Below are positions 15,911-33,609 of a DNA stretch of 33,609 bases, piece by piece (positions within the stretch are counted from its first letter, which is position 1; each line of letters starts with the position of its first letter). Under the pieces are notes generated by a model, which ran no database searches, was not told the DNA's origin, and saw nothing but the letters and a program-made list of their open reading frames with translations. This DNA comes from Bacteroidota bacterium (lineage in GTDB: Bacteria; Bacteroidota; Ignavibacteria; UBA10030; UBA8401), in the NCBI GenBank assembly GCA_028873075.1, contig JAGWND010000009.1, positions 1 through 33,609 on the forward strand. The letters run 5' to 3'. A program made the translations under genes and the position numbers.

Positions 15911-16440
15911 AACATGAGGCACGTCAGGCAATCGCTTTAGTCCTGACCTCATCAGGATTAAGGAGGAAAGTCCGAACTCTATCCCGCACGGCGGGATGGG
16001 CACGGTGCTGGATAACATCCAGGGTCCCGTTCATTCGGGATACGGAAAGTGTCACAGAAAATATACCGCCCCGTGAGATGAGATTACGCCGGAAGAAATT
16101 CATCTTGCAGCGTAATGATCTCACGAGGCAAGGGTGAAAAGGTGCGGTCCGCCACAGCGGACTTAATGTAAGAGCGCACCGCGTCCGCCGCGAGGCGAAC
16201 GGCATGACAAACCCCACCGAGAGCAAAGCCGCGTAGGTCCCGCGTCCTGTTTCTTCGCAAGAAGAAGCGGGAGAAGAAGTGCCCGTTCAACTCTTCTGGT
16301 ACGCCTTGCGTACCGGAAAACGCGGGACGGGTAGGCTGCTGGAGTGACGCAGCAATGCGCCATCGAGAGAAATGGTTGCCTCCCCTTCCGAAGTCGTCGG
16401 AAGAGAAGACAGAATTCGGCTTATCGGCGTGCCTCATGCT
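15911..16440 (+). ncRNA. rnpB: RNase P RNA (bacterial, type A-like), enlarged
   Basis: P1 CATGAGGCACG/CGTGCCTCATG (15913-15923 with 16428-16438), GAGGAAAGTCCGAACTC, ACAGAAAATATACCGCC, GAGCAAAGCC, ACAGAATTCGGCTTATCGG. Confidence 0.95.
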
Positions 16441-28802: not shown

Positions 28803-29073
28803 TTGTGTCTCTATGACTTCGTTGCTGAACAAATATTACTTTTCAAAGTACCAAAACTTTGTCGGCGAAGCAAGAAAGAGCCGGTGAATAATCTCATTAT
28901 ATCTACCTAAATAGATTGAACCACCGCTTCAATACTTCGTTGTAATTTGAAAAATGGTGTACATGACCGATTGATGCCGACTACTGAGCGGGCTATATTG
29001 CTTATGGATTTCGGAGAGGAGGAGATTTATTCCCGATGGGGGGAATTTTTATTCAGCAGGTAAAAAGAAAAAA

Positions 29074-29310
29074 ATGATAACCGTACTCATAGGAATAGCG
29101 ATTTACCTTCTCATGCTGTTCTTCAGTGTCAGGTTCTTTCAGACGGTGCACGGATGGGATGAAGAAATGGCATCGTTGTTCGCCGCAAAAGAAAAATCTG
29201 CCCGCGTGAAAGCCCCGCTGCTGCACGAAAGAAGAACGCACCGGAAACGAAAAAATGCGTTCCACCGCGTGTCAAACTCGCGCAGACATACCATAGCCAC
29301 GGCGAACTAA
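29074..29310 (+). CDS. Possible small membrane protein
   Basis: 78 aa, N-terminal hydrophobic helix ITVLIGIAIYLLMLFFSVRFF, basic tail; flanked by intergenic sequence. Confidence 0.4.
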   Translation: MITVLIGIAIYLLMLFFSVRFFQTVHGWDEEMASLFAAKEKSARVKAPLLHERRTHRKRKNAFHRVSNSRRHTIATAN

Positions 29311-29347
29311 TAGTGCGGTCAACGTAAAGCGAGTGTTTAGCCCGCAG

Positions 29348-29800
29348 CTATTCAATCGCTTTTTCGAAACACACACTGTTCTCTACCGCAGCATAGTGCC
29401 CGTAATTTGGAATACGCGTGTACCCTCTTTTTTCATACAGCCGGACCGCTTCCGGCTGCCTTTTCCCGGTCTCTAAAATGCATTTCTTGTAAGACAGCTC
29501 GCCTGCCCATTTTTCCAATTCCGCCAAAATTTTTGTGGCAATTCCTTGCCCCCGGTATTCCGGCAGCGTGTACATTCGCTTAACTTCAATAACGCTGGCA
29601 GTATATTCCTTTATCGCGCCGCAGCCGACCGGCTTACCATCATCGTACGCCACAACTACGTGTTTGATCTTATCAATCTTATTGAACTGGGCATAAAACG
29701 AATGCTGCGCTCCGTCTCTTTCGGTTAAATCCGAATCGAGAAGTTTTACCAACGCGACAAAATCTTGATTATCCGAATTTGTTCTCACTATTCTAATCAT
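29348..29800 (-). CDS. GNAT acetyltransferase
   Basis: RMYTLPEYRGQGIATKILAELEKWA...LETGKRQPEAVRLYEKRGY. Confidence 0.9.
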   Translation of the reverse strand: MIRIVRTNSDNQDFVALVKLLDSDLTERDGAQHSFYAQFNKIDKIKHVVVAYDDGKPVGCGAIKEYTASVIEVKRMYTLPEYRGQGIATKILAELEKWAGELSYKKCILETGKRQPEAVRLYEKRGYTRIPNYGHYAAVENSVCFEKAIE

Positions 29801-29822
29801 TTACAATTGCTCTCATTGAAAA

Positions 29823-30263
29823 CTATTCAATCTCTAACACCTCTGTAACTAACGACACTATTACCGCACGGCTTTCTTTCCATGCTTCCCAAACCGATTC
29901 GCACCATGTTCGGATTATCACATCTCTTTGTTTGCCCGCGGGAACATTCATCACTTCCGCGACAGTTATCTTTCCCCTCAACTTTGGCGGCGTAATCTTG
30001 GGCCACGCCATACGCTCGCCCGCCGTCTTCGTATGTGCCTGCTGAACTTGTTTACCTGTAAAATTCTTTTCAACATACAGATAAAGGCCGGCAAGCGCAA
30101 AAACTACGCCGATCGGCTTTGAATTTTCATCCGCCGTTTGAGCAGTGAACGCATCAACAATATGCTGATGGGTGAAAGAAGGATCGGGATGAGAGAGCGT
30201 GTAATACGAAAGCTCATTATACAATTCTCTCTCAGAATTTGTGTTTCCTTTGCTCATCAGCAC
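29823..30263 (-). CDS. DUF5946-like protein
   Basis: LYNELSYYTLSHPDPSFTHQHIVDAFTAQTADENSKPI...WCESVWEAWKESR. Confidence 0.7.
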   Translation of the reverse strand: MLMSKGNTNSERELYNELSYYTLSHPDPSFTHQHIVDAFTAQTADENSKPIGVVFALAGLYLYVEKNFTGKQVQQAHTKTAGERMAWPKITPPKLRGKITVAEVMNVPAGKQRDVIIRTWCESVWEAWKESRAVIVSLVTEVLEIE

Positions 30264-30265
30264 GA

Positions 30266-31018
30266 TTACAGATATACATTCAAGCCGAAACTAACAAGCG
30301 GGCTGCTAAAATACCATCCCTTACTTGTCCCTGTGTTGTCAAGATGATACGGCACATAATTGGGAAGGTCCGGGATCGAACGATCCTGATTTGATACCGT
30401 TGAACGCCATTGATATTGGATGGTTTCGTTATACATTGCATGTAAAGAAAGCCAGTGCGATGCAAACCATTCTACGCCCACAATTCCTGCCGCACCTCCT
30501 CCCCACTGAATTGTTTTTGAAACATATTTTACCCGCTCCCAATAACTTCTGGAATTAGTTGAATAAAGGTAAGCATTATCAGTAGTATTATTGTAATAAT
30601 TATACGCAATAGCTGGTCCGAGTCCGCAATAGAAATGAACCGGTCCGCTTGGATTCAGATACCACAAATATTGAACGACAACGGCAACATTTGCTGTGCC
30701 ATATGAATTGCTTGTCGAAGCGGTACCGGCACCGGTATCAGCCGCCGTTCCGGAAAGAGAATTCGTTCCATCGTTCGTATTGCCGTAGAACATAATTCCT
30801 CCCCGAATTGCATTCTTTTCAGAAAGCTGATACTTAGCGGCAAATGAAGAGCCTTGAAAAGTTGTGAATGTAAAATTGCTCGCTATTCCGAACTGCAATG
30901 CCCATGAACCTTCTCTCAAGGCAGTACTGTCAAGAGACTGGCCGAAAACTTGAGACGAGGTATAGAGCAAAGCAAGCGTTAAGAGTGAGGAAAATATTTT
31001 GAGATTTAACTTGAGCAT
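30266..31018 (-). CDS. Outer membrane beta-barrel protein
   Basis: Signal peptide plus alternating aromatic strands (VVVQYLWYLNPSGPVHFYCGLGPAIAYNYYNN), C-terminal VSFGLNVYL. Confidence 0.75.
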   Translation of the reverse strand: MLKLNLKIFSSLLTLALLYTSSQVFGQSLDSTALREGSWALQFGIASNFTFTTFQGSSFAAKYQLSEKNAIRGGIMFYGNTNDGTNSLSGTAADTGAGTASTSNSYGTANVAVVVQYLWYLNPSGPVHFYCGLGPAIAYNYYNNTTDNAYLYSTNSRSYWERVKYVSKTIQWGGGAAGIVGVEWFASHWLSLHAMYNETIQYQWRSTVSNQDRSIPDLPNYVPYHLDNTGTSKGWYFSSPLVSFGLNVYL

Positions 31019-31140
31019 TTTTTAATCTCCTGGTAAAAGTTGAGGATTGATTCTTAATGGAATTGATCAAATTTTCCCGGCATCATTCTATCGAATGACG
31101 GCTGGTTAAGGGTGAACTGAGCCTTTTTATCATCAGTCGT

Positions 31141-31177
31141 ATAGTCGTAGGACACCTTTGAGGTGTCCAACGACTAT
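31141..31177. terminator. Strong palindrome between two minus-strand units (terminator or mobile repeat)
   Basis: ATAGTCGTaGGACACCTttgAGGTGTCCaACGACTAT, 16 paired bp with one mismatch. Confidence 0.6.
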
Positions 31178-31185
31178 ATCTGTTC

Positions 31186-31450
31186 TTACCTCAGCAGCAG
31201 CATCTTCCTTACATCCACAAAGCTTCTCGCCGAACCGCTGAGCGGCGTTGCAGTAATGCGGTAGAAATAAATTCCCGATGAGACAACTGCATTCCACTCC
31301 ACTTCATGATATCCGGCATCTTGTCTTGAATAGAATTAGCAACTTGCTTTAATGCCCGCGTTCTATTTTGTTCTTCCAAGCAATGCGCCTGTGTTCGCAT
31401 CAAGTATAAGACCCAGCGGTATCGGTCCGCCTTGATACATAATCAGCGAG
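31186..31450 (-). pseudogene. Relic of a secreted protein ending in a T9SS type A sorting domain
   Basis: RQDAGYHEVEWNAVVSSGIYFYRITATPLSGSARSFVDVRKMLLLR*; upstream in another frame SLIMYQGGPIPLGLILDANTGALLGRT. Confidence 0.75.
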
Positions 31451-31769
31451 ATTGCAGCGGGATTGGGGACCATGTCCTGACTTAACGTCTCAGAGGTTGT
31501 CTCGTTCCATACACTGGAACAGTCCCGCCTGCTGCGGGATAAGACCCGAAAAGCCTGTCCCGCAATGTTTCTATGCCGGAAGGTGTGGTCGGTTCATTGA
31601 CCTCAAAAGATATTCTGGCAATCGAATGTCTGTTGATGCTGCGCGGTGCATGTGCCGCTGAATGCGTTACGTTTTTTCATGCTCTCTTCCGTTCCGGGAA
31701 ACCTCTCCGGTGCGGTACAGGATACTATTTTTTTCTTTGCTGACTCTTGACTTTTTACTTAGTAAAGAG

Positions 31770-31784
31770 GTTAGGCAACCCGTT
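31770..31784. repeat. 15-bp inverted repeat, left copy
   Basis: GTTAGGCAACCCGTT, exact reverse complement of 32673-32687. Confidence 0.85.
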
Positions 31785-31785
31785 A

Positions 31786-32667
31786 TCAGCGAATTTCGGT
31801 TGACCCGTCCCCTGAGAAAATCGGCGTTCCAAAAACTGAAATTGAGATCTGATTTTTGGGATTCTTATCGTTTTTGATGCCAGAAAATTGTGTTTTGAGA
31901 ATAGGGCTAAGGACCTTTGCAAGACTCTCCGCCATATCTAGGTCATTGTTGTTGAGCTCCATTTGAATCGGCGGTGGTGTGCCTGAGAAGAAAGAGGTGC
32001 CGGAGGTGACGCCTTGGACTGGAAGGCCAGCAGATTTCATCAAATCCATCAGTTGTTGAGTGAATAATTGCCGTGCGCGACTTCCATTCTCACAATACAA
32101 AGAGACTTCCTTTAGCCTGTTGGCAAACTGAGATTTCAGAGCCCTGAGCGAATTAAGCACCTGATTTCTGATTTGTGATGATATAGGACGAAAGACGTCT
32201 TGTGTCGAAATAGCCGCAGTGGATTGTTCTAATCGGGAAGTTCGCATTTGCAGCGAAGCCATCCCTTTGGCGAGCTTGGATAGTGCCAATTCAGGTGGAT
32301 CCTTCGGAAACTTGCTTGACGCAAGCTTCTGGAATGGGGATAGGGAGTTCTTGAGATCTATGAGTTCTGAACTGACCTTGTTGAACGATGAAATCGCCTC
32401 TAATTCTCGTCTTGTCGATTGTGCCGCTTGGACAGATAGTGAATCCTTTATTTCACTTAAGTTCGCAACCACTCTGTCGGACTTTTGATCATCAACGACT
32501 ACAAGAATTACTGAGACTATTGCGCCAAGAGTGTATATGGCTAGAAGGCTATTACGAAGTCTTGCAAAGGCCTTGGTTCGTTTATCCCTCCACTTGTAAT
32601 CGAGGGCATGCTCACCCAATGCGGCAAACAATGTGAGCACGATGGAAATTATTTTGGCAGTAAGCAT
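31786..32667 (-). CDS. Membrane-anchored coiled-coil protein of unknown function (candidate cassette gene)
   Basis: Two N-terminal hydrophobic segments (AKIISIVLTLFAALGEHAL; SLLAIYTLGAIVSVILVVV) then a coiled coil; bracketed by the 15-bp inverted repeat. Confidence 0.65.
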   Translation of the reverse strand: MLTAKIISIVLTLFAALGEHALDYKWRDKRTKAFARLRNSLLAIYTLGAIVSVILVVVDDQKSDRVVANLSEIKDSLSVQAAQSTRRELEAISSFNKVSSELIDLKNSLSPFQKLASSKFPKDPPELALSKLAKGMASLQMRTSRLEQSTAAISTQDVFRPISSQIRNQVLNSLRALKSQFANRLKEVSLYCENGSRARQLFTQQLMDLMKSAGLPVQGVTSGTSFFSGTPPPIQMELNNNDLDMAESLAKVLSPILKTQFSGIKNDKNPKNQISISVFGTPIFSGDGSTEIR

Positions 32668-32672
32668 TTGAG

Positions 32673-32687
32673 AACGGGTTGCCTAAC
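32673..32687. repeat. 15-bp inverted repeat, right copy
   Basis: AACGGGTTGCCTAAC, exact reverse complement of 31770-31784. Confidence 0.85.
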
Positions 32688-32872
32688 GGCGTGGCTGCTA
32701 AGCCGCAGCCCAACACAAAAATGCTGATTTTGTTAAATAATTTTTATGATTTTAAAAAATTACATAGTGCAACTACTTTGAACAAGATACTTGAAACGGA
32801 ACGACCAACATTAATATTTCTAAAATGCCGAATGCGAAAGAAGCTGTCGGCTTGAGCAGCTTGTTATAGGGC
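32681..32872 (-). other. Candidate integron attC recombination site
   Basis: On minus: GCCCTATAACAAGCTGCTCAAGCCGACAGC ... GGCTGCGGCTTAGCAGCCACGCCGTTAGGC; 16-bp stem with two single-base bulges on one strand and R'-type GTTAGGC. Confidence 0.6.
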
Positions 32873-32913
32873 AAAATTATTTTTGTCTTGTAATGTTTGT
32901 TGGTTATAGTTGT

Positions 32914-33555
32914 TCATATCTTTTCAGCTAATATATATGTCCGCTTACTTTGATATTCCACATCACTATTATATGGATGACGCTCAATGGCATCTATTAT
33001 TTGAAAACCAGTTTCTTGCAGTAATTCTATTATCTTTTCTGTTTGGAAGAAGTACAAATCTATATCAACATCTATATCATTGGCTTTATCGAAATGCACT
33101 ATCTTGTCGCCAGCGTGAAAGGAAAATAAGAATTGTCCTTCTTTTTTTAGCACTCTGTTTACTTCACTAAAAGCCATCTTGATTTGATCATAAGTAAAAT
33201 GCACAATAGCGTAGAATGCAACCACGCTCCTAAAATAGTCTGACTTGTATGCAATGTTCAGAAGATCTCCCGTTTCAAATTTAATTTTTGGAAATAGCCT
33301 CTTTGCAACATCAATCATTCTGGCAGAGATGTCAATGCCAATAATATTTTTTAAACCGTGATCATAAAGAAATTTTGTTGTATGTCCGGGTCCGCAGCCA
33401 AAGTCTGCACACAATCCTTTTTCTTTATTCATTAATGCAAACTCTTTCAATAATAAACGATCTAAATGTTTTTTAGAAAGTTCATCACTGCGATGAGCTG
33501 CATAATCATCAGCTACATCGTCGTAACATTTTATTATTGTTTCTATTGACTGCAT
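32914..33555 (-). CDS. Class I SAM-dependent methyltransferase (candidate cassette gene)
   Basis: LCADFGCGPGHTTKFLYDHGLKNIIGIDISARMIDVAKRLFP...FETGDLLNIAYKSDYF. Confidence 0.9.
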   Translation of the reverse strand: MQSIETIIKCYDDVADDYAAHRSDELSKKHLDRLLLKEFALMNKEKGLCADFGCGPGHTTKFLYDHGLKNIIGIDISARMIDVAKRLFPKIKFETGDLLNIAYKSDYFRSVVAFYAIVHFTYDQIKMAFSEVNRVLKKEGQFLFSFHAGDKIVHFDKANDIDVDIDLYFFQTEKIIELLQETGFQIIDAIERHPYNSDVEYQSKRTYILAEKI

Positions 33556-33609
33556 TCTCAGTTTTCCCTTTCTAAAACAATTCTCTTTGAAGTTTTTCCA
33601 TTTCTAACC

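Follow-up and report, generated by a model that had tools for sequence, protein, structure and literature searches.

Evidence for a chromosomal-integron attC site and a recurrent 26-mer junction in an Ignavibacteria contig lacking an integrase gene

We analyzed a 33,609-nucleotide stretch of DNA, referred to here as the window, which constitutes the whole of contig C110 in a draft genome of 3.39 Mb and 347 contigs. We conclude with high confidence that positions 32681 to 32869 of its minus strand are an attC site of a chromosomal integron, joining the cassette of a methyltransferase gene to that of a 293-amino-acid orphan gene. The identification as an attC rests on sequence, structure, homology, covariation, the ends of the cassettes, and the IntI-bearing integrons found in the same family. 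In all, the site is ordinary integron biology accompanied by one unexplained recurring junction, a 26-mer at the far end of the second cassette.

Boxes and stem of the attC site

The site is 189 nt long and, on the minus strand, has the order R''-L''...L'-R', as delimited by covariance model R1, homologous attCs, and covariation. The R' box, GTTAGGC (32687 to 32681, minus strand), was read from the sequence; it opens the cassette of the 293-amino-acid gene, fits the consensus GTTRRRY, as the earlier note had stated, with its cleavage at G/TT, and places the recombination point at G/TTAGGC. The R'' box, CTATAAC (32863 to 32869, minus strand), closes the methyltransferase cassette and was assigned from its sequence and from a box type common to homologues in the class. 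Its AAC pairs with the GTT of R', although only 5 of its 7 bases agree with the wider consensus RYYYAAC. The stem joins positions 32694 to 32709 (GCTGCTAAGCCGCAGC) to positions 32843 to 32860 (GCTG[T]CGGCTT[G]AGCAGC) with 16 of 16 bases paired. This is the imperfect L''/L' stem of an attC, with extrahelical bases on one arm: the only unpaired bases, T32847 and G32854, both lie on the plus (folding) strand, six bases apart, within the segment that forms the minus-strand L'' arm (32843 to 32860; spacing T-N6-G). The L' arm, GCTGCGGCTTAGCAGC (32694 to 32709, minus strand), is supported by sequence and covariation, and an AT-rich loop of ∼130 nt separates L'' from L' in minus-strand order. The stem and both bulges had been described in the earlier note and are present letter for letter.

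IntI recognizes the extrahelical T and G of the folded, single-stranded bottom strand. In the window, the plus strand would be the "bottom" strand; when single-stranded it would fold into a hairpin whose extrahelical T and G would be recognized by IntI, with recombination at G/TTAGGC. Recombination of attC sites as folded bottom strands under IntI has been described, and T-N6-G bulges are of the type excised efficiently by tested integrases, with some exceptions for VchIntIA (PMC3053210). The 60-bp aadA1 attC of class 1 integrons shares with the window site the R''/L''/L'/R' order, a near-identical core (TCAAGCCGAC...CGGCTTA), and extrahelical bases six apart (C and A on the top strand, corresponding to T-N6-G on the folding strand). 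The difference in length, 60 versus 189 nt, is due to the long AT-rich terminal loop of the window site, which also has an L'-R' spacer of nine rather than six bases and no IntI nearby.

The joined cassettes and their surroundings

The site lies between two open reading frames on the same strand, the arrangement that the earlier note had reported: a methyltransferase gene with its stop at 32914 (minus strand) and a second minus-strand frame starting at 32667. The first (32914 to 33555, minus strand) encodes a 213-amino-acid class I SAM-dependent methyltransferase of generic type (Pfam Methyltransf_25, 2.5e-19); the contig stops 54 nt upstream of its start, and the start of its cassette lies beyond the contig end. 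The second (31786 to 32667, minus strand) encodes the 293-amino-acid protein, which gave no match in Pfam, NCBIfam, or PADLOC and no relative in the genome and viral contig collections scanned.

The two R boxes of a single cassette are expected to be complementary, and those of the second cassette are. Its 5' end (32669 to 32687, minus strand) is complementary to its own 3' end (31770 to 31788, plus strand; ...AACGGGTTGCCTAAC on the minus strand, with an R'' box GCCTAAC at 31776 to 31770), as in integron cassettes. The start, TTAGGCAACCCGTT, and the end, AACGGGTTGCCTAA, form a 19-nt inverted repeat with 95% complementarity.

To the left of the cassette region, positions 31200 to 31330 (minus strand) hold what appears by eye to be the remnant of a secreted-protein C terminus (...FYRITATPLSGSARSFVDVRKM), type IX secretion-like; the array therefore borders ordinary chromosomal genes. 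A near-perfect intergenic inverted repeat at 31140 to 31178 (TATAGTCGTAGGACACCT / AGGTGTCCAACGACTATA) is probably a terminator, and Rfam places a class A bacterial RNase P RNA at 15916 to 16439.

Covariance model, homologues, and controls

A covariance model was made here from 27 other attCs, aligned with the window site left out; these came from arrays beside true IntI genes in several phyla, from a class 1 plasmid, and from relative G013. Within the window, as the earlier note had proposed to check, the top match of the model was 32681 to 32869 on the minus strand (30.9 bits, E 5.3e-5), and the second match reached 10.5 bits. At the bit score of the window site, the genome-wide E value is about 0.005 (a match on contig C274 with 31.1 bits has E 0.00475). 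The genome-wide search retrieved two further attCs, C161:19-181 (48.7 bits) and the aforementioned C274:14498-14565, both at contig ends. The window site is not among the genome-wide matches listed, most likely because scoring covered 150 of 987 first-pass candidates. A search of the genome for cassette-end patterns and a blastn search with the site returned no additional attC, whereas the covariance model did.

Matches to the model are present in 14 of the 22 family genomes. The nearest relatives of the window site by blastn are attCs in other families of the class, with matches at 79% over 159 nt (E 4e-29) and at 73% over 188 nt; shuffled queries gave at most 33.7 bits, compared with 122 for the real site. 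The earlier note had listed as caveats an imperfect R'' box and a span of about 190 nt, long for an attC. Neither is odd for the clade: attCs of ∼160 to 190 nt are usual there, one homologue in G060 is likewise exactly 189 nt, and many R'' boxes have TATAAC or CATAAC at their end. Because homologues in the clade share this length and the TATAAC box, the 189-nt span and CTATAAC are normal there.

In an alignment of 23 homologous sites, 91% of stem cells form standard pairs, and double changes occur in 63 cells, versus 22 in shuffles; sliding the stem partner by 1 to 3 columns abolishes this covariation signal. DNA folding of the plus strand, also suggested in the earlier note, recovered the stem with a z score of -2.3 relative to shuffles (minus strand, -1.7), values whose modest size presumably reflects the long AT-rich loop.

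Two rival readings were weighed against these results. An intergenic inverted repeat, such as a transcription terminator, could resemble an attC, and the site does lie between genes; attC sites are themselves thought to carry weak terminators (PMC9892861). We consider such a look-alike very unlikely given the 130-nt AT-rich loop, bulges confined to one strand, exactly placed R boxes, and homology and covariation with attCs from cassette arrays; the covariance match and the cassette ends also disfavor it. For chance pairing, we scanned for R boxes combined with a bulged stem; on a class 1 integron plasmid, this procedure picked up the cassette attCs, which have identical T-N6-G bulges. The window site scored 53 and the runner-up on the same strand 41. 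First-order shuffles with the composition of the window (10.1 Mb) contained 2 sites scoring at least 53, one with the identical bulge pattern, and shuffles with local composition (29001 to 33609; 9.7 Mb) contained none. A chance inverted repeat can thus be dismissed: a single shuffled site in 10 Mb equals the score and bulge pattern, but ∼0.003 are expected per window, homologous sites occur at other loci and in other families, and the cassette ends are extended.

Overall, the attC interpretation of the earlier note is borne out by the covariance match, the homologues, the covariation, and the cassette ends, and its call for further attC copies was answered by C161, C274, and the family genomes.

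Integrases in the genome and its relatives

The earlier note saw no integrase in view, which proves true of the entire draft genome: no IntI above the cutoff was found there or in two congeners (G006 and G007). A true IntI above the curated cutoff does occur in 7 of the 22 family genomes; in G013, for instance, intI is followed by three attCs (core CTCAAGCCGAC...CGGCTTAG). None of the three outcomes that the earlier note regarded as fatal to its proposal, i.e., no covariance match, no similar sites, and no intI in relatives, was obtained.

Complete integrons have been reported in the Chlorobi/Ignavibacteriae group (PMC9024848). Cassette arrays with a true IntI likewise occur in the window's family, while the window is a fragment without intI or an adjacent attI. 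Integrase-less attC clusters (CALIN) are proposed to be degraded integrons, and IntegronFinder 2 reports them only from two sites up (PMC9024848). The window resembles a CALIN in its orphan attC and cassettes, but the contig carries one intact attC, with the other two on separate contigs, and so falls below the threshold of at least two attCs close together.

Since no IntI was found in the genus, the array would be either a relic or one on which an enzyme absent from the assembly acts in trans. The site would have recombined in the past through a family-type IntI and would now be dormant or served in trans. That the array is still mobile, with an intI that the draft assembly simply lacks, is a possibility to which we give the smaller share of our confidence. 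In relatives, most intact intI matches are found near the end of a contig, integrons are often split across contigs in drafts (PMC9024848), and the attC-bearing stretches of this genome are at contig ends; on the other hand, the estimated completeness is 100%, and both congeners, including G006 with 40 contigs, likewise lack IntI.

One candidate integrase was rejected. A XerC/D-like integrase on contig C264 was not accepted as an IntI: its best model is NF040815 (below cutoff), and it skips positions 179 to 229 of TIGR02249, which we take to be the place of the IntI-specific insert. At this locus (C264, 625 to 1808), an 87-amino-acid GIY-YIG open reading frame interrupts the XerC/XerD-like tyrosine recombinase gene; bordered by copies of a perfect 15-bp inverted repeat (GTTCACCCCGTGAGA), it resembles a small mobile element. 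Adjoining the split gene (1873 to 2540) is a YoeB/YefM-type toxin-antitoxin pair flanked by GTTATGCGTTATTGCGTTGCGG and CCGCAACGCAACAAACGCATAAC, which are complementary in the manner of cassette ends; the attC model gave no match there. The start of a second XerC/XerD-like integrase, truncated by the contig end, is present at C226, 3073 to 3369.

A recurrent 26-mer after cassette R'' boxes

Directly after the R'' box GCCTAAC of the second cassette, where the L'' arm of an attC is expected, stands the 26-mer CTCTTTACTAAGTAAAAAGTCAAGAG (31744 to 31769, minus strand). The genome contains three exact copies, all after CCTAAC (one in the window and two on C161), and a copy with three mismatches likewise follows AAC. 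As a pattern prefixed with CTAAC is biased toward R'' boxes, 149 class genomes were searched free of any prefix constraint; of the 13 hits, 12 follow TAAC and 1 follows TGAC. At ∼50 places in the class, a cassette-end box is immediately followed by the 26-mer, and this junction is both real and recurrent. At many of the ∼50, the start of the upstream cassette is complementary to the R'' box (the control median is a match of 9 bases, and only values well above it are informative), and these starts adjoin an attC L'-R' or an attI-like YCTAATYAYTA. About 10 junctions have part of an ordinary attC 45 to 500 nt downstream of the 26-mer, and in some of them L'-R' and the following cassette are intact; remnants reach E<1e-4 in 9 of 50 and are weaker in others. 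In the alignment of the 26-mer (A3), row L170 was left out as being on the wrong strand.

Two other settings deserve mention. At L262 (G195:C1), near-identical units of ∼380 to 430 nt that start with the 26-mer lie between consecutive cassettes, possibly as an unusual-repeat array. In G006, G007, and G015 (L231, L219, L226, L227, and L207), dispersed single genes lie between an attI-like YCTAATYAYTA/GTTAG and the 26-mer; these single-cassette units have no attC, and no IntI was detected in the genomes. The 5' flanks of single-gene units have little in common across genomes beyond the last ∼12 bases.

Conservation is limited to a 26-nt core, with no encoded transposase or reverse transcriptase and no intron structure: four loci gave no Rfam intron match, and no transposase was recognized in the open reading frame lists. 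An intrinsic terminator was rejected by eye, there being no GC-rich stem. Known attC-targeting elements include IS1111-attC insertion sequences (PMC11187229) and group IIC-attC introns (PMC7923331). Like the 26-mer, these occupy a fixed place at one attC end (R'' for the introns), but they are coding, whereas the core of the 26-mer is short and noncoding, and the 26-mer starts after RYYYAAC rather than inside TTGT/T. A limited literature search found no description of the junction.

The 26-mer may cap attC sites, or it may itself be an attC arm of an unusual kind. More specifically, a short noncoding element with the core CTCTTTAMTAAGTAAAAAGTCAAGAG would insert or recombine precisely after the cassette R'' in several families of the class, so that the L'' arm is replaced and the cassette locked; it would be either a freezing cap or an attC whose unconventional arm serves the integrases of the clade; we hold this proposal to be evenly poised. 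The second cassette of the window keeps its R'' box, and its attC arm appears to be replaced or interrupted by the 26-mer. With the 26-mer in place of the arm, no ordinary recombinogenic hairpin is predicted at this end.

It is possible, though we find it less convincing, that the 26-mer is not an insertion and instead forms the 5' arm in another kind of attC. Near-identical units of R''-CTCTTTAATAAG...TTTTAACATAACACGCC-R' (∼380 to 430 nt) separate successive cassettes with matching ends in G195. The 3' half, TTTTAACATAACACGCC, however, occurs in only two genomes, pieces of ordinary attC lie downstream of the 26-mer in ∼10 cases, and where an ordinary L'-R' is left intact, pairing between its L' and the 26-mer is poor in three junctions. 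More doubtful still is an inverted attI-like end, such that single cassettes lie between two attI-like sites. The single-gene units of G006, G007, and G015 would fit, with YCTAATYAYTA/GTTAG on the left and the 26-mer on the right, and the left element resembles the presumed attI beside intI in G013. Against this, an exact-pattern search of 294 class genomes found no empty attI-26-mer site, and several copies of the 26-mer have remnants of an attC behind them.

Implications for integrons of the class

With the site at 32681 to 32869, a long attC type specific to the clade is added to those known, and its array is one in which cassettes persist although the integrase appears to have been lost. 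Should the 26-mer prove to be a cap, it would offer a simple route by which cassettes lose mobility and become ordinary chromosomal genes.
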